64,000 nucleotides of DNA from Nitratireductor sp. B36 (GTDB lineage Bacteria > Pseudomonadota > Alphaproteobacteria > Rhizobiales > Rhizobiaceae): NCBI RefSeq assembly GCF_020833685.1, contig NZ_JACKZY010000002.1, forward strand, positions 372,001 through 436,000, read 5' to 3'. The position numbers and the translations under genes are program-made. The notes beneath the pieces are model-generated. The model saw only the letters and a list, made by a program, of their open reading frames with translations, searched no databases and had not been told where the DNA came from. Below, piece after piece: positions 6,294-28,712 of the stretch. Positions within the stretch are counted from its first letter, which is position 1. Each line of letters opens with the position of its first letter.

Positions 6294-6382
6294 TGGTAGC
6301 GGAGGAGGGTTACCGCCAATCCCCACACCTACCGGATATACGCTACAGGCTTCGATTATACTCCAGGGTTCTGGCGGCATAG
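6275..6382 (+). CDS. Possible micro-ORF at the element left end (copy A)
   Basis: A frame ending in TAG at 6380-6382 encodes YRQSPHLPDIRYRLRLYSR followed by VLAA and stop. A near copy lies at 24360-24455. Between the two copies, 8 of 11 changed codons are synonymous and the other three are D/E, Y/F and V/T. Copy A has no ATG; the best start is GTG 6275. The frame runs through the attachment core, so it could equally be a by-product of end-sequence conservation. No family is recognised. Confidence 0.3.
   Translation: MAPLHELVAEEGYRQSPHLPDIRYRLRLYSRVLAA
6294..6329 (+). repeat. attL-like left end of the genomic island (16 bp tRNA 3' copy plus inverted arm)
   Basis: Bases 6294-6309 (TGGTAGCGGAGGAGGG) are identical to 28669-28684, which is the CCA end and acceptor/T-stem side of tRNA-Met on the opposite strand. 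Directly inside the island, 6317-6329 (CAATCCCCACACC) is the exact reverse complement of 28655-28667, which abuts the same core at the right end. This is the arrangement expected of attL and attR of one integrated element, with the intact tRNA restored at attR. Confidence 0.85.
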
Positions 6383-6622
6383 TCACGCAGTGTGTTTGAT
6401 CAGTTTGGCGTCGGCAAACGGCGCTATTCTCGATCAGTGTTTGCAGCCAACTTGTATGGGGCGGCGAAACCTTCGCGCGGTAGGCATATTCATCCATCGC
6501 CGCTGATCGTAGTTCGCTTATTCTTTGCATGAGCGCATTCGGTTTTTGGTCAAGCTACGGTGAGCACACCATTCGTGAAATCGGCGCCTACCCTTCGTCC
6601 TCGAACTCAAACCACAGAGGGA

Positions 6623-6757
6623 ATGATGCGCGAGCATACCGGAAGGAAGTTCGATTGGGTGGCGGCGCTGGCGTTCGGCTCTGGCGCGGCGGTGATGATT
6701 CCGAGCATGATCGCTTTGGCAGTCTCGTTGATGGCTGTGTTCGTTTTGCTGTTCTGA
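6623..6757 (+). CDS. Small hydrophobic membrane protein (hypothetical)
   Basis: Forty-four residues starting MMREHTGRKFDWVAALAF: a short basic N-terminus followed by one long hydrophobic segment (about residues 12-44) ending in VFVLLF. An AGAGGG stretch lies just upstream, tight against the first ATG; the second ATG at 6626 has better spacing. It looks like a single-span inner-membrane miniprotein with its N-terminus inside. There is no family call and it stands alone, so it remains tentative. Confidence 0.4.
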   Translation: MMREHTGRKFDWVAALAFGSGAAVMIPSMIALAVSLMAVFVLLF

Positions 6758-7129
6758 AACCGTAGCAATGCGGGGAATTGCGTCTTGATTCACTGGTCTA
6801 AGCCGCCTGGTCATTGCAAGCTGTGCGGGCTGCGCTATTGTGCGGCTTGGAAAACGATTGAGTTCGTAACGTGCCTAATTCTCGAATGGACAGGACATCG
6901 TCGCGGACCCGCATCCGGTTCATGAACCACGCGGGCAGTCTTATCGCATGCATCTAGCCCTGGCGCGGCCGCAAGGCCGTCGACCGGGGGCCGGAAATCC
7001 AACCAAGTCACAAATTCGGTTCTGATTTCCGGGTCCGCAACCGCTGGCCCGGTGGAGATGCATGATGATCGACAGACTTCCCAGCCGCTTGTGCGTGGCT
7101 TCCGATATTGTTGTCCGCGGGAGGCGGAC
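6758..7129. other. Intergenic region upstream of dadA
   Basis: No gene seen. The only clear signal is the ribosome site GGGAGG about 7 bp before the dadA ATG. Overlapping open frames on both strands have no recognisable product. Confidence 0.4.
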
Positions 7130-8383
7130 ATGAGGATCCTGATCGTAGGCAGCGGGGTCATCGGCGTGACCTCCGCATGGTATCTGGCGCGCGCCGGACA
7201 CGAAGTCACCGTCCTCGACCGGCAGTCGGGTCCCGCGCTGGAGACCAGCTATGCCAATGCCGGAGAAGTGTCGCCGGGCTATTCGTCTCCTTGGGCAGGT
7301 CCGGGAGTGCCGTTGAAGGCGCTCAAGTGGCTCCTGATGAAGCACGGCCCTCTCGCCATCCGTCCCCGGCTCGATCCGGCGATGTGGTCGTGGTTGTTGC
7401 AGATGCTCGCCAACTGCACGTCGCGGCGATACGCCGTGAACAAGGCGCGCATGGTGCCGATCGCGGAGTATAGCCGTGACTGCCTGCGGGAACTGCGGGC
7501 CGGGACAGGTATCGCATACGACGAGCGGGTGCGCGGCACCCTGCAACTGTTCCGGACCCAGAAGCAGCTCGATGGAACGAGCGGAGATATCGAGGTCCTG
7601 AAGCAGTTCGGCGTCGAGTTCAACGTCCTTGATCGCCGCGGCTGCGTCACTGCCGAACCGGCGCTCGCGCGGGTAACCGAGAAGTTCGTCGGCGGCTTGC
7701 AGCTTCCTGGCGATGAGACGGGGGACTGCCGCGTCTTCACCGATAAGCTGGCGGCTCTCGCCTCTGCCGCGGTCGACTTTCGTTTTGGCGTCTCGGTTGA
7801 AGGACTCGTCCAAGAAGGCGGCAGAGTTTCAGGAGTCCTGACTTCGGACGGGTTGCTTCCAGCAGAAGTCGTCGTCGTCGCCGCAGGAAGCCACTCCCCC
7901 CGACTTCTCGCTCCTGTGGGCATCCATGTCCCTGTCTACCCGGTCAAGGGTTACTCGCTTACCATGCCCATAATCGATGAAGCGGCCGCGCCCGTATCGA
8001 CGGTGATGGACGAGACCTACAAGATCGCCATCACGCGTCTGGGCGACCGCATCCGCGTCGGCGGCACTGCCGAGATATCGGGCTTCGACCTCTCGTTGCC
8101 GAGTTCGCGTCGCGCGCCGCTGGAGCATTCGGTCATGGACCTGTTTCAAGGGTCGGGCAGCGCCGCGGACGCATCCTTCTGGTGCGGCCTCAGGCCGATG
8201 ACCCCGGACGGTCCGCCGATCGTGGGGGCCACATCGGTGGCCGGCCTCTACGTGAACACAGGGCATGGAACCCTCGGATGGACGATGGCCTGCGGCTCGG
8301 GACGAGTCCTGGCGGACCTCATTTCGGGCAAAATTCCCGATATCGACGTCTCAGACCTCGGGCCAGCGCGGTATCGGTCATGA
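7130..8383 (+). CDS. dadA: D-amino acid dehydrogenase, small-subunit type
   Basis: A 417-residue FAD enzyme that oxidises D-amino acids (classically D-alanine to pyruvate and ammonia) and feeds electrons to the respiratory chain at the inner membrane. The Rossmann motif is at the extreme N-terminus ([21 protein letters not shown]); the substrate and FAD end is typical ([19 protein letters not shown], then [17 protein letters not shown]). ATG 7130 is chosen because GGGAGG precedes it and the dinucleotide fold begins at once; longer upstream extensions have no homology. It overlaps the downstream alanine racemase by 4 bp (ATGA), the dadAX arrangement, but that partner is broken. Confidence 0.93.
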
Positions 8384-9115
8384 GCGCGCAGGCGATGCGG
8401 GCGGGCGCCATCCTTACGATCGATCTTGAGGCGATCGTTTCCAACTGGCGGCTGCTGTCGAAACTGGCGGAGCCCGCCGAGTGTGCCGCTGTCATGAAGG
8501 CGGACGCCTACGGACTCGGAGCGCCCGAAGTCGCGGCCGCGCTTCAGGCGGCAGGGTGCAAAGCCTTCTTCGTCGCCCATCTCGAAGAGGGACTTGATCT
8601 CAGGGAGGCGATCGGTTTCAGCTCCCGCGTCGTCGTTCTGAACGGCACTCCTCCGGGTGCCAAGAACGAGTTCCTGCGATCGGTCTTGATCCCGGTCGTC
8701 GACACGGCAAGAGAGCTCGCTGCCTGGCGAAGTCGCGCCTGCGAAGCGGGACGCGGCGTGCCTGTCGCACTCCATCTCGACACGGGTATGTCTCGCCTCG
8801 GACTGTCGCCGGGCGACGTCGCCATGCTGGTAGACGATCCCGCCCTCATGGAGGGGCTTTCAGTGGAGCTGATCATGAGCCATCTCGCCTGCGCCAACGA
8901 GCCGACGCATCGCGCCAACCAAAGTCAGCGGCGCGAGTTCGCCTAGCTCCGCTCGGTCCTCCCTCGCGAACTCGTCGGGTATCTTCCTTGGCAAGGGATT
9001 CCACAGTGACCTTGTGAGACCGGGAGCCGCGCTCTACGGGATCAACCCGGCTCCCGGGGCGCCAAATCCGATGCGTCAAGTCGTGAGGCTGTCCGTGCGC
9101 GTCCTTCAGCTATAA
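8380..9115 (+). pseudogene. Alanine racemase (DadX/Alr) pseudogene
   Basis: The intact N-terminal part has the PLP-lysine motif (AVMKADAYGLG) and substrate-binding strands (LHLDTGMSRLG), but the frame stops at 8944-8946 after 188 residues, while the family has about 360-380. Homology resumes in another frame after the stop ([11 protein letters not shown], then [16 protein letters not shown] and NPMRQVV) up to TAA at 9113, where it ends before the catalytic tyrosine/barrel-closing region. There is thus a stop, a frameshift and a 3' deletion. An active racemase is very unlikely; D-alanine for DadA would have to come from elsewhere. Confidence 0.88.
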
Positions 9116-9235
9116 TCCTCCAGCAAGAAGCTGGAAAGGGGCGTGTGTTACATTGTCGTTCTGGCCAAAGACGGCGAAATTCTTATACACATCGGCGTAG
9201 ATCCTGTAGTTGGATTCGACGAAGCGGGCTGACGT
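9110..9235 (-). pseudogene. Unidentified gene fragment (C-terminal tail)
   Basis: On the minus strand a 41-codon frame reads ARFVESNYRIYADVYKNFAV and onward to a natural-looking end (FQLLAGGL, stop). The composition looks like a real protein tail, but there is no start codon and a stop lies just upstream. It abuts the broken end of the alanine racemase, so it probably marks a deletion junction. The parent family is not recognised. Confidence 0.3.
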
Positions 9236-9345
9236 TCAGAGCAGGCTGGCTGGTTTCAGAATGGAACGCTGGCCGCCATCCGCACTAGCCGCTGAATTTC
9301 GGCGTGTGCTCACCGCTTGCGAGGATGTCGAAGATTCCGAGTGAT

Positions 9346-9861
9346 CTAGTCAATCCGCCCGCGGGCTAAGATGTCCTCGACTGACGGCAGGGCCGACATC
9401 ACCTCAATCGTGATATCGCTTTCTGCCGGCGTCGTTCCTTCCCAGCCGGCGTCGCTCGGCTTTCCCACGACGATCCGACCGACCATTGCCGCCATCTCGT
9501 GCGGGACACAGTAATAATCATAGACACCCGGTACCTTGAGAACGATCTCTGCGCTTTCTCCCGGCAGGAGAAACCCGGTATCCCAAGGCTCCGCATTGGA
9601 GGGTATGCGGCGCGAACGGTCGTAATTTGCCGGGTGATAGGCTGTGGCGGTATGGCTATTGCCGTTATCCCGGTTGATGAACCGCAGGGCCGTGCCAGGC
9701 GAGACAGCAAGTCCGACAGGTGTGAACCAGATGCGCTCGCCGCGCGACGTGCCGCGCATTTCTATTGTCACGGCAGGTGCAGCCTTGAGCGAAGGCGAAA
9801 AGAGGAATGCGGCGCCAAGGCCGCCTCCCATTGCAAGGAATTGTCGACGCGGGGTGATCAT
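9346..9861 (-). CDS. Tat-exported cupredoxin (pseudoazurin/plastocyanin-like)
   Basis: A 171-residue periplasmic blue-copper-type protein. The N-terminus is a twin-arginine signal (PRRQFLAMGGGLGAAFLF, about residues 4-21). Type-1 copper ligands are visible: a histidine in SHTATAYHP and the loop YYCVPHEMAAM giving Cys, His and Met. The likely role is periplasmic electron transfer. The start overlaps the stop of the upstream gene (9858-10277) by 4 bp, so they form a two-gene operon on the minus strand driven from the symmetric promoter region at 10326-10361. It has a short C-terminal extension beyond the copper loop (about 45 residues). Confidence 0.85.
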   Translation of the reverse strand: MITPRRQFLAMGGGLGAAFLFSPSLKAAPAVTIEMRGTSRGERIWFTPVGLAVSPGTALRFINRDNGNSHTATAYHPANYDRSRRIPSNAEPWDTGFLLPGESAEIVLKVPGVYDYYCVPHEMAAMVGRIVVGKPSDAGWEGTTPAESDITIEVMSALPSVEDILARGRID

Positions 9862-10277
9862 TCTGCCAGACGTCCCTTGGCGTCAGCGTCATGGTAAAGA
9901 ACGACATGCGCGTGTGGCTTGTCCACGCCCGGATGGCCGGCATTGTAGTAGATGTCGACGCCACTCACCGTGTGCGAGCCAATGCTCAGCCCGTCATAGG
10001 CGGTACCATTCTGCAGTTCTTCGAGGGGCGTCATGTAGACTGTGGCGGATAGTTTGCCATCGTGATCATAGGCCAGGAACGGGCCGGCGGGCAGGGTTTC
10101 GGGATCGACGAACAGCGTGCCGAGACTTGGGATAAACTCCGGCAGGGGTAAAGCATCGCTGACTTTGACGTAAGGTTCTCCGGGCGGTGCTTCCTTCAGG
10201 GTTTCCTCGTCATGCGCGACTGCTGGAGCTGCTGCAAGAAGCGATACGGTGGTAAACAGTATATGCAGAAATTTCAT
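9858..10277 (-). CDS. Secreted hypothetical protein with His-rich C-terminal strand
   Basis: A 139-residue protein with a Sec signal peptide (MKFLHILFTTVSLLAAAPAV, cleavage near AHDEE). The mature part ends in GVDIYYNAGHPGVDKPHAH with VVLYHDAD following, i.e. closely spaced histidines that could bind a metal. It resembles the small TTHB210/DUF5602-like secreted proteins, a weak recollection rather than a firm call. AGGAAAGGA lies 8 bp before the ATG. It is first gene of the operon with the cupredoxin, which supports a periplasmic copper or redox role. Confidence 0.7.
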   Translation of the reverse strand: MKFLHILFTTVSLLAAAPAVAHDEETLKEAPPGEPYVKVSDALPLPEFIPSLGTLFVDPETLPAGPFLAYDHDGKLSATVYMTPLEELQNGTAYDGLSIGSHTVSGVDIYYNAGHPGVDKPHAHVVLYHDADAKGRLAE

Positions 10278-10325
10278 GGGGTTGTCCTTTCCTGTTGGAT
10301 GGAGGCCCTTTGGAGGGTGCTCGAT

Positions 10326-10361
10326 CCATTGGATGCGCGCCGCTGCAAAACGTTCCCGAAA
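10326..10361 (-). promoter_or_regulatory. ECF-sigma-like promoter facing the cupredoxin operon
   Basis: Reading leftwards: TTTCGGGAACG, 11 bp, then CGCGCATCCAATGG. The same two blocks occur on the other strand at 10397-10433 with a 12 bp spacer, facing folE. The -35-like GGGAAC and a -10-like CATCCA are 16 bp apart, which fits ECF sigma promoters. An ECF sigma gene lies in the folE operon. Confidence 0.6.
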
Positions 10362-10396
10362 TTGAGCCGCCCTGGCCGAATAAAAATTCTACGACG

Positions 10397-10433
10397 TTTC
10401 GGGAACGCAGCGCCGGGTCCGCGCATCCAATGG
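10397..10433 (+). promoter_or_regulatory. ECF-sigma-like promoter facing folE
   Basis: TTTCGGGAACG at 10397-10407, 12 bp, then CGCGCATCCAATGG at 10420-10433: a mirror copy of the block at 10326-10361. GGGAAC and CATCCA are 17 bp apart. The two copies point outwards to the two divergent operons, as expected for paired promoters. Confidence 0.6.
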
Positions 10434-10495
10434 TCGAATGGAGCGATTGCCCCATCCCGCCGAGCGGCCGTCTTGCCGCAAGAAGGAGTTTGATT

Positions 10496-11215
10496 GTGCT
10501 CAACACGATGTTCCCCCCCGATCACACCTGCGACAGCGTCCCGGTATCTGCCCGAATTCGCGCACGTTTGAGGGATGCCGGCCACACCTTCCGGGCCAAT
10601 GACAACATTGCGGCTTTCATCGAGGATGGTGAGCTGGAAGACCTTTGCCTGGAAGTCGAGAACCGGATGAATGCGGTGCTCGACGCACTCGTGATCGACA
10701 CGGAGAATGATCACAACACCGTGGGCACCGCGCGGCGGGTGGCGAGGATGTTTGTCGATGAGGTGTTTGCAGGGCGGTATCGCCCGGCGCCGCCCGTCAC
10801 CAGCTTTCCCAACGTCTCGCAGCTGAATGAACTGATGATCGTCGGCCCGCTCACGGTGCGCAGTGCCTGCTCCCACCATCTGTGCCCGATCATGGGAAAG
10901 ATGTGGATCGGAGTCCTTCCCAGCAGGGAGGCTGAACTGATCGGTCTGTCCAAGTTTGCCCGCGTTTGCGACTGGATCATGAGCCGCCCGCAGATTCAGG
11001 AGGAAGCTGTGATCATGTTGGCCGATGAACTCGAAAGCCGTCTTCAGCCTGAAGGGCTGGCCGTCGTGATGGAGGCGGATCATTTCTGCATGCACTGGCG
11101 TGGCGTGAAGGATGAGCAGCCGGTGATGACGACGTCCATTATGCGCGGCGCGTTTTTGCAGAACGAGGCGCTGAGGCGTGAATTTCTCGACCTGCGAAAA
11201 GGGGGTGACAAGTGA
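10496..11215 (+). CDS. folE: GTP cyclohydrolase I
   Basis: A 239-residue enzyme that converts GTP to 7,8-dihydroneopterin triphosphate, the first step of folate and pterin synthesis; it acts as a cytoplasmic homodecamer with zinc. The zinc/catalytic motif is present (RSACSHHLCPIMGK) and the ending is typical (GVKDEQPVMTTSIMRGAF). The GTG at 10496 is preferred because AAGGAG lies 7 bp upstream; ATG 10508 is the alternative. Start of an operon with an ECF sigma factor and a Rieske flavoprotein. A folE inside an island is probably a second copy, perhaps a stress-time isoenzyme, which is inference. Confidence 0.9.
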   Translation: MLNTMFPPDHTCDSVPVSARIRARLRDAGHTFRANDNIAAFIEDGELEDLCLEVENRMNAVLDALVIDTENDHNTVGTARRVARMFVDEVFAGRYRPAPPVTSFPNVSQLNELMIVGPLTVRSACSHHLCPIMGKMWIGVLPSREAELIGLSKFARVCDWIMSRPQIQEEAVIMLADELESRLQPEGLAVVMEADHFCMHWRGVKDEQPVMTTSIMRGAFLQNEALRREFLDLRKGGDK

Positions 11216-11338
11216 TCCTGATCAGACGTTCAAGATCAAGTCCGACAAGTCTATTCTGTTGGCTCGGCAGTGGTGAACCTTCGATGCCAGGGAACGGGAT
11301 GAAGGGTGCTGGTGTTAGTCAACTCCGAGGAGGCACAA

Positions 11339-12046
11339 ATGCATGAAGCCATCGAACGGGCTGCATCTGTATTCACTGAAGATGTTCCAGATACCGAATT
11401 GGCCAGGCGTGCGGCCCGAAAGGACGGCGCCGCCTTCGAGGCGATCATGCGTCGCCACAACCAGCTCCTGTTCCGAACGGCCCGGGGCATCGTGCGCAGC
11501 GACGGTGAGGCAGAGGATGTCGCGCAGGAAGCATGGATGCAGGCGTGGCGCGCGCTGTCGGGCTTCCGCGCCGAAAGCAAGCTTTCCACCTGGCTGGTCC
11601 GCATCACCGTCAACGAGGCGTTGGGCCGGTTGCGCCGGAAAAGCGCGCAAATCATTCCATTGGAGACAGCCATGATGTCGTCCGACAAGGACACACGCTC
11701 GGCACTGACGGAAGCACCTGCTCGTGGACCGGAGCATTCGGTCGAACGGTCCCAGCTCCGCGCTCTTATAGAGGCGCGCATCGCGGTGTTGCCCGAAGCA
11801 TTTCGCAGCGTCTTCATGCTGCGGGCAATCGAGGACATGAGCGTTGATGAGGTGGCGGAGGTGCTGGACATTCCCGCAGCCACAGTCCGCACACGCTATT
11901 TCCGTGCCCGTGCCCTTCTGCGCGAAAGCCTCGCGCAGGAGATGGACGTTGCCATCGGCGAGGCCTTCAGCTTTGCCGGTGAGCGCTGTGATCGCATCGT
12001 GGCGGGCGTGTTGGCTCGAGCCCGGGCGGAAGGTCTTTGCGAGTAG
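11339..12046 (+). CDS. ECF-type RNA polymerase sigma factor
   Basis: A 235-residue sigma-70 group IV factor. Region 2 runs from about residue 15 (ELARRAARKDGAAFEAIMRR, then AEDVAQEAWMQAWRAL) and region 4 follows near residues 145-200 (LPEAFRSVFMLRAIEDMSVDEVA, then VRTRYFRARALLRESL). GAGGAGG stands 5 bp before ATG 11339. No anti-sigma gene is seen next to it. The paired GGGAAC-type promoters at 10326-10433 are its most likely targets, and GGGAACG also occurs at 11290, 49 bp before its own start. Confidence 0.9.
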   Translation: MHEAIERAASVFTEDVPDTELARRAARKDGAAFEAIMRRHNQLLFRTARGIVRSDGEAEDVAQEAWMQAWRALSGFRAESKLSTWLVRITVNEALGRLRRKSAQIIPLETAMMSSDKDTRSALTEAPARGPEHSVERSQLRALIEARIAVLPEAFRSVFMLRAIEDMSVDEVAEVLDIPAATVRTRYFRARALLRESLAQEMDVAIGEAFSFAGERCDRIVAGVLARARAEGLCE

Positions 12047-12110
12047 GGCTGCTTGCTGAGCGGAAACAATCTGCGCTCTGCGGGACGAATGATACGAAGG
12101 GAGACATGGC

Positions 12111-13631
12111 ATGGGCAATACGCAGGACGTGGATAGGGGCCCGGACCTCACTGAGGGGGTGACGTTGGCTGACTTCAACGACCGACAGATGTTGCGTGGG
12201 CATGTGGGGAAGGCCTCCGTTCTGCTTGCACGTGTTGGTGAAGAGGTTCTGGCGGTCGATGCCAGTTGCACGCATTACGGAGGTCCGCTGGACGAGGGAC
12301 TGATCACCGGAGAAACCGTTCGCTGTCCGCTTCATCATGCCTGTTTTTCGCTGCGCACCGGCGAGGCTCTGGCCGCTCCTGCCTTTGACCCATTGTCATG
12401 CTGGAAGGTGGAGCGTGATGGCCAACGCATTTTCGTTCGCGAGAAGGCGGCGCCGCCGCCGCGCGTGATAGCAAACACGGATGAACCGCGCGCCATCGTG
12501 ATCATTGGCGCTGGAGCTGCCGGATTTGCTTGCGCCGAAATGCTGCGCAGAAGAGGCTATGATGGGGCACTCACTCTTCTCGGCGCCGACGAGGATGCGC
12601 CGTATGACCGGCCGAACCTGTCCAAGGACTATCTCGCCGGAGATGCGCCGCCCGAATGGATGCCGCTCAGGCCGGATGAGTTTTACCAGAAGAACGACAT
12701 CGATCTGCAACTGGGCGAAACGGTTTCCTCCATCGACGTGCCGGCGCACCGCGTGGCGCTGGAGGGCGGGCGTGTTCTGGAGTTCGACCGCCTTCTGATC
12801 GCGACGGGAGCGGAACCGGTTCGCCCACCGATCCCCGGTGCCGACCTGCCGCATGTCTTCACCCTGCGCAGCTTTGCTGACGGACGTGCCCTTGCCGATG
12901 CGGCAGAGAGAGCGAAAACTGCCGTTGTGCTGGGCTCGGGTTTCATAGGACTCGAGACGGCGGCGGCGCTCAGGCAGCGCGGACTGACAGTGCACGTGGT
13001 CACGCAGGATGCCCGTCCGCTTGAGAAGGTGCTTGGGCCTGCGCTGGGAGATTTTATTGCCGGGTTGCATGAAGACCATGGTGTCACTTTCCACATGCGG
13101 ACTTCGATCAAGGCGATCTCCGCGAATGCGGTGACACTCTCTTCAGATGACACGATTGATGCGGACCTGGTTGTCATCGGTGCAGGTGTACGCCCGCGCA
13201 CCGCACTGGCGGAGAAGGCGGGGCTGTCGGTCGATGATGGAATTCTCGTCGACGAACGGCTCCAGACGTCTGCCCCCGGCATTTACGCGGCGGGTGACGT
13301 GGCGCGCTGGCCGGGGCCGCAGAACCGAGAAACGATGCGCATTGAACACTGGGTGGTAGCAGAGCGCCAGGGTCAGGTGGTGGCTGCAAACATGCTTGGT
13401 GATGATAAGCCGTTTGACGACATGCCTTTCTTCTGGAGTGCACATTACGACATTCCCATTCGCTATGTGGGCCATGCCGAACACTGGGATGTTGCGGCCG
13501 TTGATGGCGATATTACAGCGTGCGATGCCAGCGTCAGCTACCGGAGGGGCGGGCGAACGCTGGCCGTAGCCACCCTTGGGCGAGATGTGGAGGCGCTGGT
13601 CAGAAGGCGAACCCTGCCAACCTCCGAATGA
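12111..13631 (+). CDS. Rieske [2Fe-2S] domain fused to FAD/NAD(P)-dependent oxidoreductase (AIFM3/ferredoxin-reductase type)
   Basis: A 506-residue two-part protein. Residues about 15-105 form a Rieske ferredoxin domain with both ligand pairs (CTHYGGPL and CPLHHACF). From about residue 120 it is a two-Rossmann flavoprotein: FAD site IVIIGAGAAGFACAEMLRRR, NAD site AVVLGSGFIGLETAAAL, and the second FAD motif GIYAAGDVARWPG. Such fusions pass electrons from NAD(P)H to the cluster. It lies 64 bp after the sigma factor and belongs to the folE operon. No signal peptide is present, so it is cytoplasmic. The electron acceptor is unknown. Confidence 0.9.
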   Translation: MGNTQDVDRGPDLTEGVTLADFNDRQMLRGHVGKASVLLARVGEEVLAVDASCTHYGGPLDEGLITGETVRCPLHHACFSLRTGEALAAPAFDPLSCWKVERDGQRIFVREKAAPPPRVIANTDEPRAIVIIGAGAAGFACAEMLRRRGYDGALTLLGADEDAPYDRPNLSKDYLAGDAPPEWMPLRPDEFYQKNDIDLQLGETVSSIDVPAHRVALEGGRVLEFDRLLIATGAEPVRPPIPGADLPHVFTLRSFADGRALADAAERAKTAVVLGSGFIGLETAAALRQRGLTVHVVTQDARPLEKVLGPALGDFIAGLHEDHGVTFHMRTSIKAISANAVTLSSDDTIDADLVVIGAGVRPRTALAEKAGLSVDDGILVDERLQTSAPGIYAAGDVARWPGPQNRETMRIEHWVVAERQGQVVAANMLGDDKPFDDMPFFWSAHYDIPIRYVGHAEHWDVAAVDGDITACDASVSYRRGGRTLAVATLGRDVEALVRRRTLPTSE

Positions 13632-13644
13632 GGCCAGCTGGCCT

Positions 13645-14196
13645 CTACCGAGCTGGGTAGCGAACACGCAGGTCGGGGTCGATCACGGCGCCGTCGGACA
13701 AGTGCGCCTTGGTGAGCTTTCCGATGTCCATGACATGATAGACGCTCACGCCGCGTGCAATGAGGTGGTCGGTGATAATCCGCCGATGGCAGCGCCACCA
13801 GACCGCTTCTGCACACATGAGGGCGCATCGCCGCTCATGGCAAAGATCGAGCAGCTTGAGCAATGCTGATCGAAACGTGTCGGTGAGGGCGAAATCCGCG
13901 TAGTTGTGAAAGCTCTTGTTGCGCCAGAAGCCGTTTTCATCAGGCGGAATTTCTGCGACCTTGGACCTTAGACCGCCAAGGGGCGGGCAATGGATGTAGC
14001 CGATTCCATCAGATTGGAGCTGTGGCTTGAGTAACTCCGAATTATAGGACGGATTGGTCCGTGATCTCGGAAACCTGCGCACGTCGACAACCATGTCGAT
14101 TGACGCTTCCAGAAGCATTGCCTTGAAGGTTTCCAGTGTCCGGTTCGAATGGCCGATCGTGAAAGCCACTGTTTCTGACTGGACCGCCTCATCCAT
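13645..14196 (-). CDS. DUF488 domain protein
   Basis: A 183-residue cytoplasmic protein of the DUF488 family, with the hallmark TIGHSNRTLETFKAMLLEA near the start, VVDVRRFPRSRTNPSYN, and a cysteine/arginine end region (LMCAEAVWWRCHRRII). The biochemical role of the family is not established. It converges with the Rieske flavoprotein gene (13 bp apart) and overlaps the upstream DUF2945 gene by 8 bp, so these two are one transcript. Confidence 0.88.
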   Translation of the reverse strand: MDEAVQSETVAFTIGHSNRTLETFKAMLLEASIDMVVDVRRFPRSRTNPSYNSELLKPQLQSDGIGYIHCPPLGGLRSKVAEIPPDENGFWRNKSFHNYADFALTDTFRSALLKLLDLCHERRCALMCAEAVWWRCHRRIITDHLIARGVSVYHVMDIGKLTKAHLSDGAVIDPDLRVRYPAR

Positions 14197-14398
14197 TTTT
14201 TGAAAGCGCCGATTCCTTGTGAGCGGCGATATGATCGGTCTTGTCGCTCTTGATCTCGTACTGGGGCTCGTCTGGCGATGCGCGCCGCCTGTGCCCCTTG
14301 TACTCGAAGTCGCTGTCGTGGATCTTGATGATCTTTCCGGAGACCCGTCCGGCCTCCGAATTCCAGCTCACTGAATCACCGACATCGAACCTGGCCAT
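14189..14398 (-). CDS. DUF2945 (hypervirulence-associated Tudor-like) small protein
   Basis: Sixty-nine residues beginning MARFDVGDSVSWNSEAGRVS, a Tudor-like fold typical of DUF2945, with GHRRRASPDEPQYEIKSDKT in the second half. GAGGAG lies upstream of the ATG. It overlaps the DUF488 start by 8 bp. Such genes are common in stress-response clusters of rhizobia next to DUF488 and small zinc-ribbon proteins; that association is background knowledge and the role is unknown. Confidence 0.82.
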   Translation of the reverse strand: MARFDVGDSVSWNSEAGRVSGKIIKIHDSDFEYKGHRRRASPDEPQYEIKSDKTDHIAAHKESALSKNG

Positions 14399-14508
14399 TG
14401 GACTGTACTCCTCGTCTGGGCATTGCCAAGAACAACGCGTGGTGGATGAAGGACGTTCCAAATGCGAAGTGGTGTGGCCGTCCCGAGGGCCGCGATCGGG
14501 AACCCAGA

Positions 14509-15348: not shown

Positions 15349-15364
15349 CACGATCTCCGATAAA

Positions 15365-15379
15365 TGCAATTTATTTGCA
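15365..15379. promoter_or_regulatory. LysR-type operator
   Basis: TGCAA-TTTAT-TTGCA is a perfect 5-5-5 dyad in the divergent intergenic region, 17 bp before the LysR start and about 78 bp before the ligase start. The form (T-N11-A) and place fit a LysR binding site. Confidence 0.6.
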
Positions 15380-17808: not shown

Positions 17809-17820
17809 CAGGAGGCATGA

Positions 17821-20089: not shown

Positions 20090-20302
20090 GTGTCCATTCG
20101 TAATACATTGCTGTTATGTCAAAAATGCCGCGCCGGTATTCCACGGGCTGCAGTGCGTTGCCCCTGGTGTTCTGCCTCAGTGCGCGTTTTCGCGAGCACG
20201 AGATATCCTGCTGACCATGAACTCCGACTTCGGAGTACGGGATACACCAGGAACCGTAGATACGCGAATGATGGTCGGAGTGACCTTGAGCCAGGAGGCT
20301 GA
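20090..20302 (+). CDS. Mini zinc-ribbon protein (CX2CX10CX2C), copy 2
   Basis: Seventy residues from GTG 20090 with the ribbon LLLCQKCRAGIPRAAVRC then PWC, spaced exactly as in the protein at 18691. GGAG lies just upstream of the GTG; an ATG at 19994 in the same frame would add 32 residues without clear homology. The rest is basic and low in hydrophobic residues. The function is unknown; nucleic-acid or metal binding is possible. Confidence 0.5.
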   Translation: MSIRNTLLLCQKCRAGIPRAAVRCPWCSASVRVFASTRYPADHELRLRSTGYTRNRRYANDGRSDLEPGG

Positions 20303-20440
20303 GATGTCGCAGTCGTCCCACCAAACTGAAGGAGCGCATATCCAAATCGGAACACCTCCCTGGCGCTGAATCCTCGGCGCCAGGGGACGTGGAGGGCGAA
20401 CTCGGTTCGTCAATGCCTCATTAAATTTGGAGAAGCGCAT

Positions 20441-20563
20441 ATGGCCAAGAGAAAAGGCGATCAGAAGCGAAAGCAACCAAAGGGAAAAAAGAAGAAAAAC
20501 ATCCAACAGCCCGATGCGGTCACAGAACAGTTGGCATCCGCCAATCGGAAGCCACCTCGATAG
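20441..20563 (+). CDS. Small lysine-rich hypothetical protein
   Basis: Forty codons: MAKRKGDQKRKQPKGKKKKN at the start, then a neutral tail ending SANRKPPR. GGAGAAG is 7 bp before the ATG. It matches a recurring type of tiny, strongly basic rhizobial protein of unknown function (general recollection). Too short for usual gene finders. It may bind nucleic acid. Confidence 0.55.
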   Translation: MAKRKGDQKRKQPKGKKKKNIQQPDAVTEQLASANRKPPR

Positions 20564-20735
20564 ACTGACCTTATGACATGAGGAAGTGAATGGCCGCCCA
20601 GGCAGTCAAAATCGCTTCCTTGGTCGGGTAACCCACGCTCCCCGGGCGGACAGACGTTCCCGCGCGGGGAGTTTGTTTGTCGTCCGGTATGACGGAGCGA
20701 CTATCTTGGATCCCAGGAATAATGGATGGCGTGCG

Positions 20736-21260
20736 ATGATACCCGCTCGTGTTTCCTTCGTGGTCGATTTCGAGATCGATGCAAATTCCAACGGCAGGAG
20801 AATGGCGCTGTGGAGGGTTGCTGCTCGAACTGCAGAACTACTGCCTAACAGCAGCAAGGCCGACGTCGCCAGCGCGCTTTATGCACGTGAGAGGCTGGGC
20901 ACCACCGCGGTCGGCGGCGGCATCGCTTTCCCGCATGCTGTTGTGGAGGGTTTTCCGGAGCCGTTGATTCTGGTTCGGCGATTGAAAAGACCCATCGATT
21001 TTGGTGCTCCGGATGGGCGCGGAATCGATATTCTCGCGGCAGTGCTCGGCGACACAACCGATATAAAGTGGCTCCGCTCGGCTTTGATAAGGCTCGAGCG
21101 GCTCGCCCGGGATAAGAAACTGCTCACGCAACTGCGCAGTGCCGATAACTCAAATGAGGTCAGGGCGATATTACTGGAAAGCGGCCTTGAGGTTCGTATC
21201 GCTCGAGACATGATGACAATGGGTGGGGCGATGCGTTGCAAAATGCACGCTTTGGGTTGA
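20736..21260 (+). CDS. PTS EIIA (PtsN/EIIANtr-like) domain protein
   Basis: About 174 residues. The EIIA-fructose/Ntr domain is clear: SALYARERLGTTAVGGGIAF followed by PHA with the phosphorylatable histidine, VRRLKRPIDFGAPDG, and DILAAVLG. EIIANtr proteins regulate transporters and nitrogen/potassium signalling. The start is uncertain; ATG 20736 gives a normal length, while 20586 adds an Arg-rich leader without homology. As an extra copy in an island it may act as a stress-time decoy or regulator, which is speculation. Confidence 0.75.
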   Translation: MIPARVSFVVDFEIDANSNGRRMALWRVAARTAELLPNSSKADVASALYARERLGTTAVGGGIAFPHAVVEGFPEPLILVRRLKRPIDFGAPDGRGIDILAAVLGDTTDIKWLRSALIRLERLARDKKLLTQLRSADNSNEVRAILLESGLEVRIARDMMTMGGAMRCKMHALG

Positions 21261-21378
21261 GCTGGATCGATGTCTTTGAGCGCAGGCGCGACAGTTGCGC
21301 ACTGGGGCTCGGGACGGTTGCCGCAAAAAACGCCATCTTTCCTATTGCACCGGAAGTGTCGCGACCGGTGTACAGGAT

Positions 21379-22630
21379 TCAACCCGGTTCCGTACGCGGA
21401 TCGAGCCCCAGGGCAGCTGAGGAAGTATCGGGAAGAGGAACGAATTTCTCCCGCTCTTCTTCTGCAGGCAGACGCCCGTCGGCTTTCATGCTGAGCAAGA
21501 GGAACAGGGCGTATATCACGGCTATCGTGGACTCGAATAAAAAGAACGATGCCGGTCCGTAAAGCGACATGAGCGCGGCAGCGAGAAGCGGGCCGATCGT
21601 TGCGCCGATGGAGTAGACCATCAAAAGGCGCCCGGATGCCGCGACATAATATTTGCGTTCCAATCGATCGAAGACCTGAGCGACGCAAAGCGGATAAACG
21701 CTGCTGATCGCACCTCCGAATGCCAAAGCCATGACGATCAGAACGGCGCGCGGAAGTTCGACGGCAAGCGCGCCCGACAGTAGCCCCCATGACGCGCCGA
21801 CTGCAATCAATATGCAGGACATGACGATGCGCCGGTCAAACTTGTCCGCCAGCATGCCCACGGGAACCTGAAGTCCCAGCCCTCCCAGCACGACGGTGCT
21901 CACGAACAGAGCCGCTTCAGAAGCGCTCAAGCCAATCTGGCGAGCGAAGACCACGCTCAGCGCATAGAAGGAACCGACGAGGATGCCTGCGACGCCGGCT
22001 CCCGCCAGACCGATCCGTGATACCTCATACAGTCTTCGTACGCCGAGCACGCGCAACTCACCCAAATTCGGCTCTCCAAGGCGTGTCATGGCGATGGGAA
22101 CAAGGGCCAGCCCGGTCAGTGCCGAGGCCAGCATCAGATGGCCGCTGGAGTCGTCCGGGGCTAAGCTGATCAGTGTCTGACCCGTTGCGACGGCCAAGTA
22201 GAATACCAACATGTAGAAGCCGAGGACGCGCCCCCTGGTCTCATTGTTGCTGCGCTCATTGAGCCAGCTCTCAATTGCAGTGGTCATGCCCGCGATGCAA
22301 AAACCGTTGATCACCCGCAGAATGATCCAGACGATAGGCGTCGGGAAGAAACCGTAGGCAAGGCAGATTGCGGCGGTCAATGCGGCGAATGCCGAGAAGG
22401 CTCGGATATGTCCGATTCGCATGATGACCCGTTTCGCGCGATAGCCGCCGAGCACCAGGCCCAGATAATAAGACGCCATCACGACGCCTGTCAGAGCCAC
22501 CGGGTAGTCTGCAGCCTCCATCCGTAGTGGGTAAAACCACGCCAAGCAAGCTGTTACCAGCCATGACGAGGATGGTGCCTCCCAGGAGGGACTTCACGGG
22601 AGCCAGCGATTCTACGAGGTTCCGAGGCAT
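21379..22630 (-). pseudogene. MFS transporter (YcaD-like), frameshifted
   Basis: Two frames join into one typical 12-span major facilitator protein of about 417 residues. The first 34 residues (MPRNLVESLAPVKSLLGG through GNSLLGVVLP) begin at 22630; the rest starts at LRMEAADYPVALTGVVMASY in another frame and runs to 21379. The break is at about 22523-22530 and looks like one extra base in CCCACTACGG. MFS motif A-like loops and RVINGFCIAG are intact. Either a real pseudogene or a sequencing error; translation from the internal TTG at 22545 would lack the first span. Confidence 0.8.
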
Positions 22631-23894: not shown

Positions 23895-24320
23895 TGGCGC
23901 GAGCTATGGTAGCTTGAGTCAATCGTGAACAGTTCGAGCAGGTTCAAACGCGTAATCGCGGACGCAGCCTTGACTTCCCGCACTGTCACAGACGGCTGCG
24001 CCACATGCTTTCTGGGTGTCTGAGATGAAGCGCTGATGGATTGGACTTGTCACAAGGACAAATCGGGATGTATCCGGATCAGATGCTCGGAGGCAATGGA
24101 AAGCGGACGTGTCCCGACATTAATGCCTTTTATCTCGAACCGTGGAAACCGCGATCCTGGCTGGAATGTGCGCTGAAATGAAGAACTCTCCAAAGTGCTC
24201 GCCGAATAGGTAACGACCCATCACGAGAGCGCGAGCGACCATCGCGGAGGCCACTGCCACTCGAACTCGGCTTACTGACGTGCCGCTTCGGGATATGTCG
24301 CGGTCGCTTGAGGAGTATGA
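23895..24320 (+). pseudogene. Decayed serine recombinase remnant (element 1)
   Basis: The DNA is clearly related, with many indels and stops, to 27870-28300 of the second recombinase. Matching blocks include GTTCGAGCAGG with CGCAGCCTTGACT, GTATCCGGATCAG, ATGTCCCGAC-like CGTGTCCCGAC, TTTATCTCGA, and TCGAATTCGGCTT-like TCGAACTCGGCTT. It covers the end of the recombinase DNA-binding domain, the zinc-ribbon region and the start of the coiled coil. No open frame survives. It lies where a recombinase gene should lie: at the right end of element 1, just before a copy of the element's left-end sequence. Confidence 0.8.
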
Positions 24321-24359
24321 TGCCGCTCTGGCGTGTTCCAACACACGAGATGTAGTGTT

Positions 24360-24455
24360 ATGGATATCGAGTCTTTGGACCGCTACCGTCAATCCCCACA
24401 CCTGCCGGAAATACGCTACAGGCTCCGATTGTTCTCTCGGACATTGGCGGCCTAG
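24360..24455 (+). repeat. Second copy of the element left-end sequence, with 31-codon ORF (copy B)
   Basis: It matches 6305-6382. Bases 24380-24402 (CCGCTACC, GT, CAATCCCCACACC) equal the reverse complement of 28655-28677 with one mismatch, i.e. the arm plus part of the attachment core. An ATG-started frame over the block encodes MDIESLDRYRQSPHLPEIRY and on to TLAA. It is read here as the left end of the second element. A coding role is possible because the changes from copy A are mostly synonymous. Confidence 0.7.
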
Positions 24456-24655: not shown

Positions 24656-25456
24656 ATGAATTTTACCCATTACAATCTGGGGCACGTCGAACGGGGCAGT
24701 GTCGTCGTGGTGACGCTCAGCGGCAGCGCGGCCAACGTTCGCCTCATGGATGGCTCAAATTTCAGCAACTACAAGGCGGGCCGCCGCCATCGTTACGTCG
24801 GAGGACTTGCCAAACGTTCCCCCGTGCGCCTGCCGGTGCCGCATTTCGGCACCTGGCATGTTGCCGTCGACATGCAGGGGTTGTGTGGTTCGGTGCGGTC
24901 TGGTGTTCAGGTGATCCGAGGTGATGCGCTCAAGCCTCTTCCTGCAATCAACGAGGCACCGCTGCGTAGCGTCCCCACACTCGTTCGCAATGCCGAGGAC
25001 GAACTCGCTCCCACGACCGAGGCCCCCGATGGCCGGGTTTTCGATGTTTTCATCTCCCACGCATCGGAGGACAAGGATGAAGTCGTGCGACCGCTGGCGA
25101 ATGCACTGCGCGAAGCAGGATTGTCGGTCTGGTACGACGAATTCGAATTGCGGATCGGCGACAGCCTTCGCCGCAAGATCGACCGCGGTCTGGGAAGCAG
25201 CCGCTTTGGCGTGGTCGTGCTGTCGCAGGCGTTCTTTGGCAAGGGCTGGCCCGAATACGAGCTCGATGGACTGGTAACCCGCGCCGTGTCGGGCGAACAG
25301 GTCCTGCTGCCGATCTGGCACAACGTCTCCAAACGCGAGGTGATTGGCTACTCGGCTTCGCTCGCGGATCGACTGGCGCGCAGTACCGCCACTCACACCG
25401 TCGAAGAGATTGCCGCGGAAATTGCCGACGTCGTGCGCCTGCCGAATGCAGCGTGA
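24656..25456 (+). CDS. DUF1883-TIR domain protein
   Basis: A 266-residue protein. Residues 1 to about 90 are a DUF1883 domain (MNFTHYNLGHVERGSVVVVT, SNFSNYKAGRRHRYVGG). Residues about 128-262 are a TIR domain: FDVFISHASEDKDEVVRPLA, LSVWYDEFELRIGDSLRRKI, and GKGWPEYELDGLV, where E202 is in the place of the catalytic glutamate of NAD-cleaving TIR enzymes. Bacterial TIR proteins often act in anti-phage defence by depleting NAD or making signal nucleotides. DUF1883 could be the sensor. It is followed by two small related genes and a Fic gene in the same element. Confidence 0.88.
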   Translation: MNFTHYNLGHVERGSVVVVTLSGSAANVRLMDGSNFSNYKAGRRHRYVGGLAKRSPVRLPVPHFGTWHVAVDMQGLCGSVRSGVQVIRGDALKPLPAINEAPLRSVPTLVRNAEDELAPTTEAPDGRVFDVFISHASEDKDEVVRPLANALREAGLSVWYDEFELRIGDSLRRKIDRGLGSSRFGVVVLSQAFFGKGWPEYELDGLVTRAVSGEQVLLPIWHNVSKREVIGYSASLADRLARSTATHTVEEIAAEIADVVRLPNAA

Positions 25457-25680: not shown

Positions 25681-25692
25681 GAGAACAGGGGA

Positions 25693-25905: not shown

Positions 25906-26083
25906 TTTGGCTCCTTTCTGGTCAGTGGCCGGCGGGCATGCTTCGCTTACTTATCGACACTTATATCTAGCTGTGAACGATTTTCGACATTGGTGATTGT
26001 TTTTCAATCGTTCGGACTGTAAGGCTCTTTCGATCGACGGGCGATGTATGATCGCTTTTCGACAGCCATGAGGGAAAGCCGAC

Positions 26084-27643
26084 ATGAAGCTGGATATCGG
26101 GAATCCTGCCCATTTTCAGAACGAACCCGTTCCAGAGGGCGCCCGGCTCGCAGGGTGGGCGGCCCTCGTTCACGCGCTCGACGTGAAAGCACCGGTGCGA
26201 AGCCCTTCCTGCATCTCCGAACGGCACGTGCGCGGCAATCGTCGGGGGGAGGGCATCTGGGAGATCTATGACAAGCGGTATCAGCCGGACGATACCCTTG
26301 ATGGGCATCTCGGCTTTGCCCTACGCCATGAGCCGATCGATTTTCTGGTTCTCAAACGCATCCTCGATGCACTGCCAGAACAGGACCTCATAGACTTCAT
26401 CCAGCGGACACCGACCGGCGCGGTCACACGCCGCGTATGGTTTTTTTACGAAACCCTGACGGGCAAGCGCCTCGATATCGACGACGCCCCCACAGTTACC
26501 GCCGTCGACGCACTTGATCCGGAAACATATTTCACCGGTCCAGCGTCACTGTCCCTGCGCCATCGTGTGCGCAACAATCTGCTTGGCACGGGCGCGTTCT
26601 GTCCGATCATCAGGCGCACCGAAAAGCTGGAAGCATTTCTGGCCCTCCACCTTTCCAGGAAGGCCCAGGAGACGATAGGGCGGACAGGTGCTCATGTCGT
26701 CTCCCGGGCCGCGAGCTTGCTCCTGCTGGCCGACAGCCGCGCGAGCTTCGAGATCGAAGGGGAGCGCGCACCTGCCAATCGGCTCGAGCGCTGGGGACGC
26801 GCGGTTCTGGAGGCCGGCAAGCGTCCACTCAATCAGACCGAAATCTATCGCCTGCACCGCATCCTGATCGGCGACGACCGGTTCACCGAGATTGGATATC
26901 GCAGCGAGGGCGTGTTTCTGGGCGAGCGGGACCACAACCATGATCCGTTGCCCGAATTCATCGGAGCTCGCCCTCAGGATGTTCCCGACATCATGACCAG
27001 CCTCAATGAATGCAACAACAGACTGCGGATCTCAGACGTCGATCCGGTCCTGCAGGCCGCGGCAATCGCGTTCGGGTTTGTATACGTGCATCCGCTGGCC
27101 GACGGCAACGGGCGCCTGCACCGCTGTCTCATCCACCACGTGCTCGCCGAGCGCAAATACACCCCGCCCGGCATGGTGTTTCCTGTTTCTGCGGTCATGC
27201 TGGATCGTATCGACGACTACACCTCGACCCTGAAGCGGCACTCTGGCCCCTTAATGGAGTTCATCGACTGGCGCGCGCTGCCCAATCACAATGTCGAGGT
27301 CACCAACGAAACGGCGGACCTCTATCGCTATTTCGAGTGTACCGAGGAGGCCGAGTTCCTCTATAGCTGCGTGCAGCGGACAGTCGAAATCGATCTGCCG
27401 CGCGAGATCGACTACCTCAAGTGCCGCGATCAGGCGCTGACCGCCATCATGAATCTGGTCGAAATGCCGGACCGTATGGCGCAGGACCTCATCATGCACA
27501 TCCGCCAGAACGGCGGCTCCCTCAGCAAACGCCGCCGCACCGGCGAATTTGAGAAGCTGCGCGACGACGAAGTTCAGCAGATTGAGGCAATTGTCGCGGA
27601 TGCCTTCCAAGATTTTGACAACAGCTACAGCACAGAACCCTAA
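26084..27643 (+). CDS. Fic family protein with intramolecular inhibitory helix
   Basis: A 519-residue protein. The Fic core motif is HPLADGNGRLHR starting at H336 (consensus HPFxDGNGR), preceded by the flap region (GERDHNHDPLPEF). An (S/T)xxxE(G/N) inhibitory motif is present upstream as S221-FEI-E225-G226, typical of class II Fic enzymes in which the inhibitory helix is N-terminal. Fic enzymes usually AMPylate protein hydroxyls. The C-terminal 130 residues resemble the winged-helix end of this group. The ATG has GAGGGAAAG upstream. It stands alone after an AT-rich spacer between the mini-genes and the recombinase, as cargo of element 2. Confidence 0.9.
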   Translation: MKLDIGNPAHFQNEPVPEGARLAGWAALVHALDVKAPVRSPSCISERHVRGNRRGEGIWEIYDKRYQPDDTLDGHLGFALRHEPIDFLVLKRILDALPEQDLIDFIQRTPTGAVTRRVWFFYETLTGKRLDIDDAPTVTAVDALDPETYFTGPASLSLRHRVRNNLLGTGAFCPIIRRTEKLEAFLALHLSRKAQETIGRTGAHVVSRAASLLLLADSRASFEIEGERAPANRLERWGRAVLEAGKRPLNQTEIYRLHRILIGDDRFTEIGYRSEGVFLGERDHNHDPLPEFIGARPQDVPDIMTSLNECNNRLRISDVDPVLQAAAIAFGFVYVHPLADGNGRLHRCLIHHVLAERKYTPPGMVFPVSAVMLDRIDDYTSTLKRHSGPLMEFIDWRALPNHNVEVTNETADLYRYFECTEEAEFLYSCVQRTVEIDLPREIDYLKCRDQALTAIMNLVEMPDRMAQDLIMHIRQNGGSLSKRRRTGEFEKLRDDEVQQIEAIVADAFQDFDNSYSTEP

Positions 27644-27799
27644 GCTTCAGCCATCGTATTGTTCGGGATCGCACTTCGGTTCGAGCCGACAGAGATCGGC
27701 CACGACGTGGCGTGGCGGACGGGTGCCTCGGCGAAAGATGCAGGCAGGCGTCAGCGCGGAGTTCGAATCCCTCTCGGGGCCTCAAGTCGGAATGAACCT

Positions 27800-28712
27800 G
27801 AGCACCACATCGAAGGCCGGCCGCCGTGTGTCTCGCCCCAATCCGAAAGAAGAGTGGCAGTCAGCCGACGTGCCCGAACTCGCTATTGTCAGCCGCGAAC
27901 TGTTCGAGCAGGCGCACGCGCGCAAACGCGAGCGCAGCCTTGACTATCCACACCATCATCGCCGACCGCGTCATATGCTTTCGGGGCTGCTTCGGTGCGG
28001 TGCGTGCGGATCAGGCATGTCGACCAACGGCAAGGATAAATCAGGCCGTATCCGGATCAGGTGCTCGGCCGCGACGGAAAGCGGGTCATGTCCCGACCCG
28101 AAAACCTTCTATCTCGAGACCGTGGAGACCGCCGTTCTGTCTGGCCTGCATGCCGAGATGAAGAGCCCCAGGGTACTCGCCGAATACGTGAAGACCTATC
28201 ACGAGGAACGCAAGCGACTGTCCGCAGAGGCCGATGCTAATCGAATTCGGCTTGAGCGCCGCGCCGAGCAACTCAAGCGCGAGATCGACCGTTTGGTCGA
28301 TCATCTCGCCAAAGGTATTGGCGATCCGTATGTGATCGGTCCCCGCTCGACTGAACTCTACCATGAGCGCGAGGCGGTTCTTGCAGAGTTGGAGAAAGCT
28401 CCACCTGCCTTCGAGGTCGTTTCGCTGCATCCCGCCATCCTGAAGCGCTATGAGGAGCAGCTCGAAGTCCTTCAACACGCACTGGCGGAAGGCATCCGGT
28501 CAGGCGACCGGGAATGTGCGGAAGCAATACGGGAACTGGTCGAAACGGTGACCGTCTACCGCGATCCTTCAGAACCCGGAGCGGTCGAGATCGAGATTGC
28601 AGGACGGCTCAACTCGATCCTTGGCGAACGTGCCTACCCCAATGGCGTCAAACGGGTGTGGGGATTGATGGTAGCGGAGGAGGGATTCGAACCCCCGACA
28701 CAAGGATTATGA
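27800..28712 (+). pseudogene. Large serine recombinase, N-terminally truncated (element 2)
   Basis: An open frame of about 300 residues holds the recombinase DNA-binding domain end (RPNPKEEWQSADVPELAIVS), the zinc beta ribbon (LLRCGACGSGM and later SCPDP) and a long coiled coil (residues ERRAEQLKREIDRLVDHLAK on). The N-terminal resolvase domain with the catalytic serine (about 150 residues) and the first part of the recombinase domain are missing: the Fic gene ends at 27643 and nothing homologous lies between. The last codons (VAEEGFEPPTQGL) are antisense reading of tRNA-Met. The enzyme cannot be active as encoded. Confidence 0.85.
28655..28684 (+). repeat. attR-like right end of the genomic island
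   Basis: Arm GGTGTGGGGATTG at 28655-28667, AT, then the core TGGTAGCGGAGGAGGG at 28669-28684 within the tRNA 3' end. The core is identical to 6294-6309 and the arm is inverted relative to 6317-6329. Confidence 0.85.

Follow-up and report, generated by a model that had tools for sequence, protein, structure and literature searches.

Stacked islands at tRNA-Met in Nitratireductor sp. B36 and a serine integrase gene that probably contains its own attachment site

The 64,000-nucleotide stretch of Nitratireductor sp. B36 analysed here (contig NZ_JACKZY010000002.1; hereafter the window) carries at positions 6294-28684 what is, from its sequence, a composite block: two or more islands that large serine recombinases (LSRs) of one family, common in Alphaproteobacteria, have stacked at a tRNA-Met gene and that meet at an internal junction near 24377. 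We consider it likely that in this element family attP, the attachment site of the free element, lies within the 3' end of the LSR gene, and that integration exchanges the C-terminus of the integrase; this judgement covers stacking, attP position and C-terminal swap together. In the sequences compared, attP is in frame with the gene, two alternative C-termini are encoded, the tail beyond attP bears the marks of coding selection and islands are stacked. The features that define the ends are as follows.

6294-6309, plus strand: left copy of the core, on the side of the left attachment site (attL), found by exact-match search
6296-6382, plus strand: core followed by the P' half of unit A, which encodes the native tail of the integrase, EGYRQSPHLPDIRYRLRLYSRVLAA, up to its stop
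6317-6329, plus strand: P' arm of unit A, the exact reverse complement of the P arm GGTGTGGGGATTG
27819-28712, plus strand: C-terminal LSR fragment, residues 271-567 of the relative at locus L049, without the catalytic part (Zn_ribbon_recom, E 1.1e-12)
28655-28667, plus strand: P arm, outer part of the attP half, with the letters GGTGTGGGGATTG
28669-28684, plus strand: right copy of the core, on the side of the right attachment site (attR), identical to the tRNA-Met 3' end
28669-28745, minus strand: tRNA-Met(CAT), the attachment target, located with ARAGORN, its 3' end rebuilt by the element

The 16-bp core TGGTAGCGGAGGAGGG has no other exact match in the window, and its right copy is the tRNA-Met(CAT) 3' end with CCA included. 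Joined, the outer halves give 50 bp with 18 of 25 symmetric pairs, against a mean of 6.5 in letter-shuffled 50-mers, none of which reached at least 18 in 20,000 trials; a chance repeat is rejected on this shuffle test and on the expectation of 3e-5 for a given 16-mer in 64 kb. The repeat, the 13-bp inverted arms, the tRNA-Met end and the 18-of-25 symmetry had all been described from the sequence in the original prediction, and each was found to be exact. According to the accessible part of PMC3783163, the contacts of an LSR dimer should extend over 50 bp of attP, the zinc-domain motif lying at positions 16-24 of each half; the dyad fits this contact length and the motif positions fall inside the 13-bp arms. 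The window thus holds the attachment features of an LSR, a site of about 50 bp with imperfect dyad symmetry and a short shared core. The right P half (28655-28680) pairs at 22 of 25 positions with an inner P' half, described below, versus 18 of 25 with the outer one, and the 50-bp attP rebuilt in the original prediction therefore probably mixes two units: the dyad site of about 50 bp stands, as a hybrid of the halves of two units and not as the attP of a single element.

That these ends are large serine integrase attachment halves at tRNA-Met, as first proposed, agrees with the evidence from relatives. The 13 letters of the P arm recur unchanged beside the intact LSRs of L262-L265, L267 and L300 and with one change in L260 and L261. 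The intact 61,856-bp element of Rhizobium sp. L1K21 has a P arm reading GTGTGTGG and a P' arm reading CCACACAC, so that a change in one is matched in the other, apart from one further mismatch. Six other genomes, picked because they hold such an LSR, contain 14 sites with the exact 12-bp core, 13 of which form five pairs and one array of three while one stands apart; the pairs are 11.9-41.8 kb apart, and each pair or array ends at an LSR and tRNA-Met. Within the genus, an LSR gene lies downstream of the tRNA-Met 3' end in two of nine genomes (G002, G009) and other DNA in seven. Insertion by a tyrosine integrase was also considered and is rejected, as the gene adjoining the tRNA is an LSR remnant.

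The recombinase gene had been thought to end at the right arm; its frame instead crosses arm and core into the tRNA gene and stops at 28712, so that its end, MVAEEGFEPPTQGL and finally ..VKRVWGLMVAEEGFEPPTQGL, is read from core and tRNA. Placing attachment-site halves at the island ends was right, and what had been overlooked is the position of attP inside the integrase gene. Read from the core into a P' half, the same frame gives a tail like DRYRQSPHLP(E/D)IRYRLRL(F/S)SRxLAA, followed by a stop. Natural genes in which LSR and tail are uninterrupted occur in G009, G084 and G114, probably at tandem junctions, and their LSRs are only 35-39% identical to that of the window. Two phage records have the arrangement as well, the core lying within the gene in both: the LSR of Rhizobium phage RR1-A ends VVAGERFEQSPQIILGRFVA, with a dyad of 12/25, and that of Microcystis phage Mae-JY30 ends VVAEVRSNPSPPFRFGVIAA, with a dyad of 19/25. 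Further such genes are found on viral contigs. At a locus matching phage phiPam-6 both products can be read from one element, the attR frame ending VAEEGFEPPTQGL and attL retaining VAEEGFSRSHRMPEPMFILRHAA, with the tail end ..ILRHAA.

The same division appears in a survey of 204 distinct complete LSR open reading frames (ORFs) from the fetched loci, from which 8 ORFs running off a contig were excluded. These comprise 130 that end by reading tRNA-Met in antisense, 35 first called free and 39 without an in-frame core. All but one of the 130 end in GL, and 44 end exactly in VAEEGFEPPTQGL; database entries for 'recombinase family proteins' that end EEGFEPPTQGL, or in a close variant, would be explained in this way. 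Among the 35, 27 cross the core in frame and continue to a different tail, and the remaining 8 have unclear ends or end in other tRNAs. Around the core, the 27 free forms have a mean of 13.4 symmetric pairs out of 25 and the 130 integrated ones a mean of 9.0; these means take the best of 7 offsets, and as the sequences are related the p value of the difference should not be taken literally. The main part of the LSR gene stays whole in intact integrated members. Some of L052, L074, L194, L207, L364 and L366 read tRNA-Met antisense in another frame and end TPDTRIMIPLL, and others of this group end in apparent other tRNAs (VAGGRIELPTSGL, VAGAGFEPATFRL).

Coding selection on the tail can be followed most closely in the clade of the window, where 40 of 45 distinct P' copies are open to a common stop and 5 are not. 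Beyond the arm, the 39 copies that could be aligned (the 40 open ones minus one with an internal shift) differ by 65 distinct changes, a way of counting that handles the relatedness of the copies in part; 36 of the changes fall at third positions and 35 are synonymous. When the same base changes were placed randomly, the mean was 21.3 synonymous, and at least 35 was reached in none of 10,000 trials. In an earlier set of 26 copies, identity falls from 0.84 to about 0.5 and then 0.3 just past the stop. On this sequence comparison the tail of the window clade is coding and under purifying selection down to its last codon. In three other tail groups third positions are again the most changed (68/140, 95/203 and 10/13, the last from one sequence pair), these being raw pairwise counts without a null.

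The mechanism that we propose starts from the free element, in which the frame would pass through P arm, core and P' arm into the native tail, of about 25 codons in the window clade and 17-64 residues from the core in other lineages, and the LSR would be made in its tailed form. On integration the LSR would join attP to the tRNA-Met 3' end; the crossover within the core would rebuild the tRNA end and at the same time cut the tail off the LSR gene, providing a new stop after about 13 codons that core and tRNA supply in antisense (VAEEGFEPPTQGL or a close variant). The tail would be restored by excision. We infer that the tailed and swapped forms differ in lifetime or activity.

What the tail would do is a more tentative matter. 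The transfer-messenger RNA (tmRNA) of the host encodes the tag ANDNYAEARLAA, ending ..RLAA, and among the 40 open tails of the window clade 36 end in AA, mostly as ..LAA, a likeness that suggests a degron removed by integration. We find it most likely, while holding the idea tentatively, that the tail of the window clade is an ssrA-like degron, that a newly arrived integrase is short-lived and that the tag is shed on integration; this putative degradation tag of the free form is proposed from sequence likeness alone, ..LAA against ..RLAA. It may be, as a guarded extension across many genera of Alphaproteobacteria, that the integrase carries a sensor of its own state, passing from a short-lived, ssrA-tagged establishment form to a stable prophage form on integration and being reset by excision. 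When all clades are taken together, an Ala end is found in 14 of 33 tail clusters (background 17%) and an Ala-Ala end in 8 (background 7%), with one-sided p values of 6e-4 and 2e-3 against 646 background ORFs, a set collected mechanically that may include false ORFs. The 33 clusters derive from 45 tails. Of these, 27 were selected by rule and form 22 clusters, with 8 Ala and 5 Ala-Ala ends (p 0.025 and 0.019); the other 18 were added by hand. Excluded from the count by eye were ends in other tRNAs or unclear ends (L067, L200, L202, L232, L246, L406, L407, L413), cores in other genes or unclear (L502, L504, L511, L512, L513, L514, L516 and, likewise, L522, L523, L524, L528, L529, L531) and loci without an in-frame core (L213, L445).

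A simpler view is that the arrangement is compact packing, in which an attP overlapping the integrase gene saves space and the swap of tails is neutral for the enzyme. An AlphaFold model of a viral relative is compatible with this: at a mean predicted local distance difference test score (pLDDT) of 76 and a predicted template modelling score of 0.47, the LSR domains before about residue 510 are modelled, and the residues after it, tail included, lie outside the folded core as disordered chain, mostly at pLDDT below 50. In this model the LSR core is complete without the tail, which could probably be exchanged without harm to the fold; being a single model with a disordered tail, it says nothing on a docking site. 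The tails also vary widely among clades in sequence and length, and phiPam-6 was induced from the integrated state, according to the accessible part of PMC3925955, so the swapped form appears competent for excision. Neutral packing is nevertheless rather unlikely in our estimation, for the tail of the window clade is under purifying selection to the last codon and, by eye, tail motifs such as LIDxGxW are common to divergent LSRs.

Alternatively, the tail could be a working part of the enzyme, for example for synapsis of attP with attB, the bacterial attachment site, or as a block on excision while the element is free, with integration setting the directionality. The motif common to the long tails of L218, L248, L492 and L499 would fit this, as would a low-confidence helix in the model of L248 and the open tails retained by clades without a terminal Ala. 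In the window clade, however, the tail is short and its end resembles that of the ssrA tag of the host, and from sequence we regard a working part as unlikely. The motif itself resembles LIDxGxWQ..L..AI, is also seen in L183 and L185, and would likewise go on integration.

The original prediction had defined one 22.4-kb island to the base, a picture that gave way when a third copy of the arm was found at 24390-24402. The features of the internal junction are these.

23909-24273, plus strand: decayed fragment of a second serine recombinase, at the end of unit A
24311-24376, plus strand: conserved flank, here called class 2, that replaces the tRNA core at the internal junction
24377-24455, plus strand: P' half of unit B, encoding the native tail of the integrase, DRYRQSPHLPEIRYRLRLFSRTLAA, up to its stop

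Each unit follows the order P' half, cargo, LSR remnant. The two remnants are related, 23918-24273 and 27888-28253 sharing 71% DNA identity, with protein matches of 45% and 40%; both are decayed fragments without a catalytic domain. The LSR next to the tRNA retains only the Zn-ribbon and C-terminal part, whereas all three domains, Resolvase, Recombinase and Zn-ribbon, are present in the intact relative L260. Without the first 270 of the 567 residues of its relative, the enzyme in the window would be unable to move the island. A single 22.4-kb element with one attP is improbable: the outer repeat and arms are exact, which favours it, yet it has no place for the P' half at 24377 or the second LSR remnant at 23909-24273, and relatives carry multiple P' halves on one contig (four on G002:C14, three in a Stappia genome, three on G114:C40). 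The class 2 flank, up to about 65 bp (..GGTATCGAGTCTAG), also precedes P' halves in L010, L107, L112, L124-L126, L130, L131 and L467, and the DNA farther out is unrelated between genomes. No Rfam match to it was found in four loci with relatives, and an alignment of upstream DNA and an LSR search gave no identity.

Several observations weigh against the explanation that we prefer, or against parts of it. An open frame of about 25 codons is not improbable by itself. Two of the three other clades have more non-synonymous than synonymous codon differences (49 vs 33 and 85 vs 34), and one reverse-strand frame of the tail is also rich in synonymous changes. A degron as a general rule is unsupported, since other clades often lack the ..AA end (Ala-Ala in 8 of 33 clusters). 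The internal junction at 24377 has the class 2 flank on its left and not the tRNA core. Finally, an empty site was sought in 40 genomes, that of the window included, with queries from the left flank and the tRNA side, and was not found.

It is very improbable that the stretch past the P' arm is non-coding and is conserved because a host protein or directionality factor binds the DNA there. DNA conservation does reach 94%, and one reverse frame of the 26-copy set has 23/54 synonymous changes, a point that remains, but the codon-phase tests disfavour this reading: changes are in phase with the tail frame (35/65, and 30/57 in the 26-copy set), the other two forward frames have 9/55 and 11/54 and the other two reverse frames 10/57 and 10/55, and conservation stops at the stop codon.

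The empty site had been predicted to join about 6293 directly to tRNA-Met. The left-flank query matched 6 of the 40 genomes, two of these in the attachment half only, and the tRNA-side query matched all 40 somewhere, mostly in tRNA genes. Besides the genome of the window, both flanks were seen on one contig only in G001, which shares one segment of the left flank.

6040-6213, plus strand: left flank common to the window and G001, followed at nearly the same point in G001 by a decayed P' half

The site in G001 is occupied, holding other DNA and the decayed P' half. At this locus (L032; G001:C1, about 667.9-679.4 kb) the gap from a LacI flank to tRNA-Met holds about 11.5 kb with the decayed half at its left edge, and from the translated frames alone this DNA resembles an aromatic-catabolism cluster. 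For the Stappia array, the flank was found in 2 of 13 other genomes, with no tRNA in the 3.8-kb loci or in three further 20-kb stretches; for phiPam-6, none of the 29 other loci read, a subset of the sites listed, contained the left flank. Neither search yielded an empty site.

The LSR family itself is widespread. A relative of the recombinase fragment at E <= 1e-20 occurs in 74 of 297 genomes of the same family, that of the window included. Four close members, 83-93% identical, have frames of 567 codons, and the one scanned contains Resolvase, Recombinase and Zn-ribbon domains; a profile search of PDB chains with the family gave SPbeta YokA and the A118 integrase among its matches. The genera represented among the 80 best loci include Rhizobium, Bradyrhizobium, Mesorhizobium, Nitratireductor, Methylocystis, Stappia, Roseibium and Paracoccus. 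Of 30 LSR loci, the window included, 22 have tRNA-Met(CAT) in the fetched stretch, one has tRNA-Lys and seven have none. Look-ups among phages and plasmids found no relative of a tail-bearing LSR at >=60% identity. Among L269-L291, from Bradyrhizobium and Mesorhizobium, the core on the integrase side matches the host tRNA variant, with GGGAG or GGGGG for GGAGG, as would follow if an element has to restore the tRNA end of its own host. At L155 (G314:C7:686453) a partial tRNA-Met copy reaching the anticodon region lies beyond the 61.9-kb serine element, a hint that this hot spot holds a second element, perhaps one with a tyrosine integrase. At L016 (G004:C166:12056-14598), with translations read by eye, a P' half adjoins a tyrosine-recombinase-like frame, about 1.5 kb beyond a guaA-like one.

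In the model integrases of phiC31, Bxb1, A118 and SPbeta, attP lies outside the integrase gene and the targets are mostly protein genes. They share with the window family the Resolvase, Recombinase and Zn-ribbon domains and, as given in the accessible part of PMC3783163, an attP of about 50 bp. The closest published system is phiPam-6 of Paracoccus aminophilus JCM 7686, for which the accessible part of PMC3925955 describes an inducible prophage that gave particles, with a serine recombinase, tRNA-Met and 17-bp direct repeats CCCTCCTCCGCTACCAT, and does not mention a tail swap. Serine-integrase insertion at tRNA-Met is therefore already known. The reverse complement of the phiPam-6 repeat contains the 16-bp core of the window, where the core at the tRNA-Met 3' end with an adjoining LSR is likewise present; enzyme type, target, core and, at the matching locus, an attP within the LSR frame are shared. 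The two differ in that phiPam-6 is an inducible phage with an intact LSR frame, whereas the window holds decayed stacked islands.

Tyrosine-integrase islands at tRNA genes have long identity blocks and are not known to have a symmetric 50-bp attP. They rebuild the tRNA gene on insertion (Islander; PMC4383910, in its accessible part), a trait shared with the window family, and differ in the recombinase family. Mycobacteriophage BPs and M. abscessus prophages use integration-dependent immunity, in which attP lies in a gene, the C-terminus is changed and the viral form often ends in an ssrA-like ..AA (accessible parts of PMC4557955 and PMC8092301). The window family shares the attP within a gene and free and integrated products that differ at the C-terminus; in the BPs type, however, a tyrosine integrase is at work and the repressor gene is split, whereas the window family has a serine integrase whose own gene is split and whose new end is read from a tRNA gene. 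Membership in this type of switch is rejected, as the switched gene is the integrase and not an immunity repressor, and the two may only work alike. The 'suicidal' (SSV-type) integrases, tyrosine recombinases with the site within the integrase gene, are exclusively archaeal according to the accessible part of PMC8371274. Their gene is broken in two, whereas in the window family the swap is confined to the end and leaves the catalytic and DNA-binding parts intact; this membership too is rejected, on the serine recombinase domains and on the main part of the gene being whole when integrated.

Serine integrases at tRNA-Met, an attP in a repressor gene with tag removal and an attachment site in a tyrosine integrase gene are thus each known separately. 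We did not meet, in the literature searched, a bacterial serine integrase gene that holds attP and has its own C-terminus exchanged on integration, a weak negative given that subscription papers and bioRxiv preprints fell mostly outside the scope of the search. What confines serine integrases to integration and silences them afterwards is a central question for phage biology and for genome tools, to which directionality factors are the known answer. If our explanation is true, recombination that remakes the C-terminus of the recombinase would add another layer of control, built into the enzyme, and the natural protein pairs would allow a direct test. The family also offers natural pairs of integrase and attachment site at tRNA-Met, with the caution that integrase genes copied from integrated elements would come without their native end.

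The two units carry different cargo.

7052-22545, strand unspecified: cargo of unit A, metabolic and respiratory genes, including a DAO-type FAD oxidoreductase, an alanine racemase N-terminal domain, a cupredoxin-like protein, GTP cyclohydrolase I, a sigma factor, a Rieske/FAD reductase, DUF488, LysR, 5-formyltetrahydrofolate (5-FTHF) cyclo-ligase, COX1, MscS, PTS EIIA and an MFS transporter
24656-25456, plus strand: cargo of unit B, DUF1883-TIR protein, candidate defence family PDC-S66
26084-27643, plus strand: cargo of unit B, Fic-domain protein, candidate defence family PDC-S24

The cytochrome oxidase subunit I gene of unit A lies at 16201-17808. DNA homologous to the Fic gene lies downstream of P' halves in G002 and G009. 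Both candidate anti-phage genes, DUF1883-TIR and Fic, sit in the small unit beside the tRNA.

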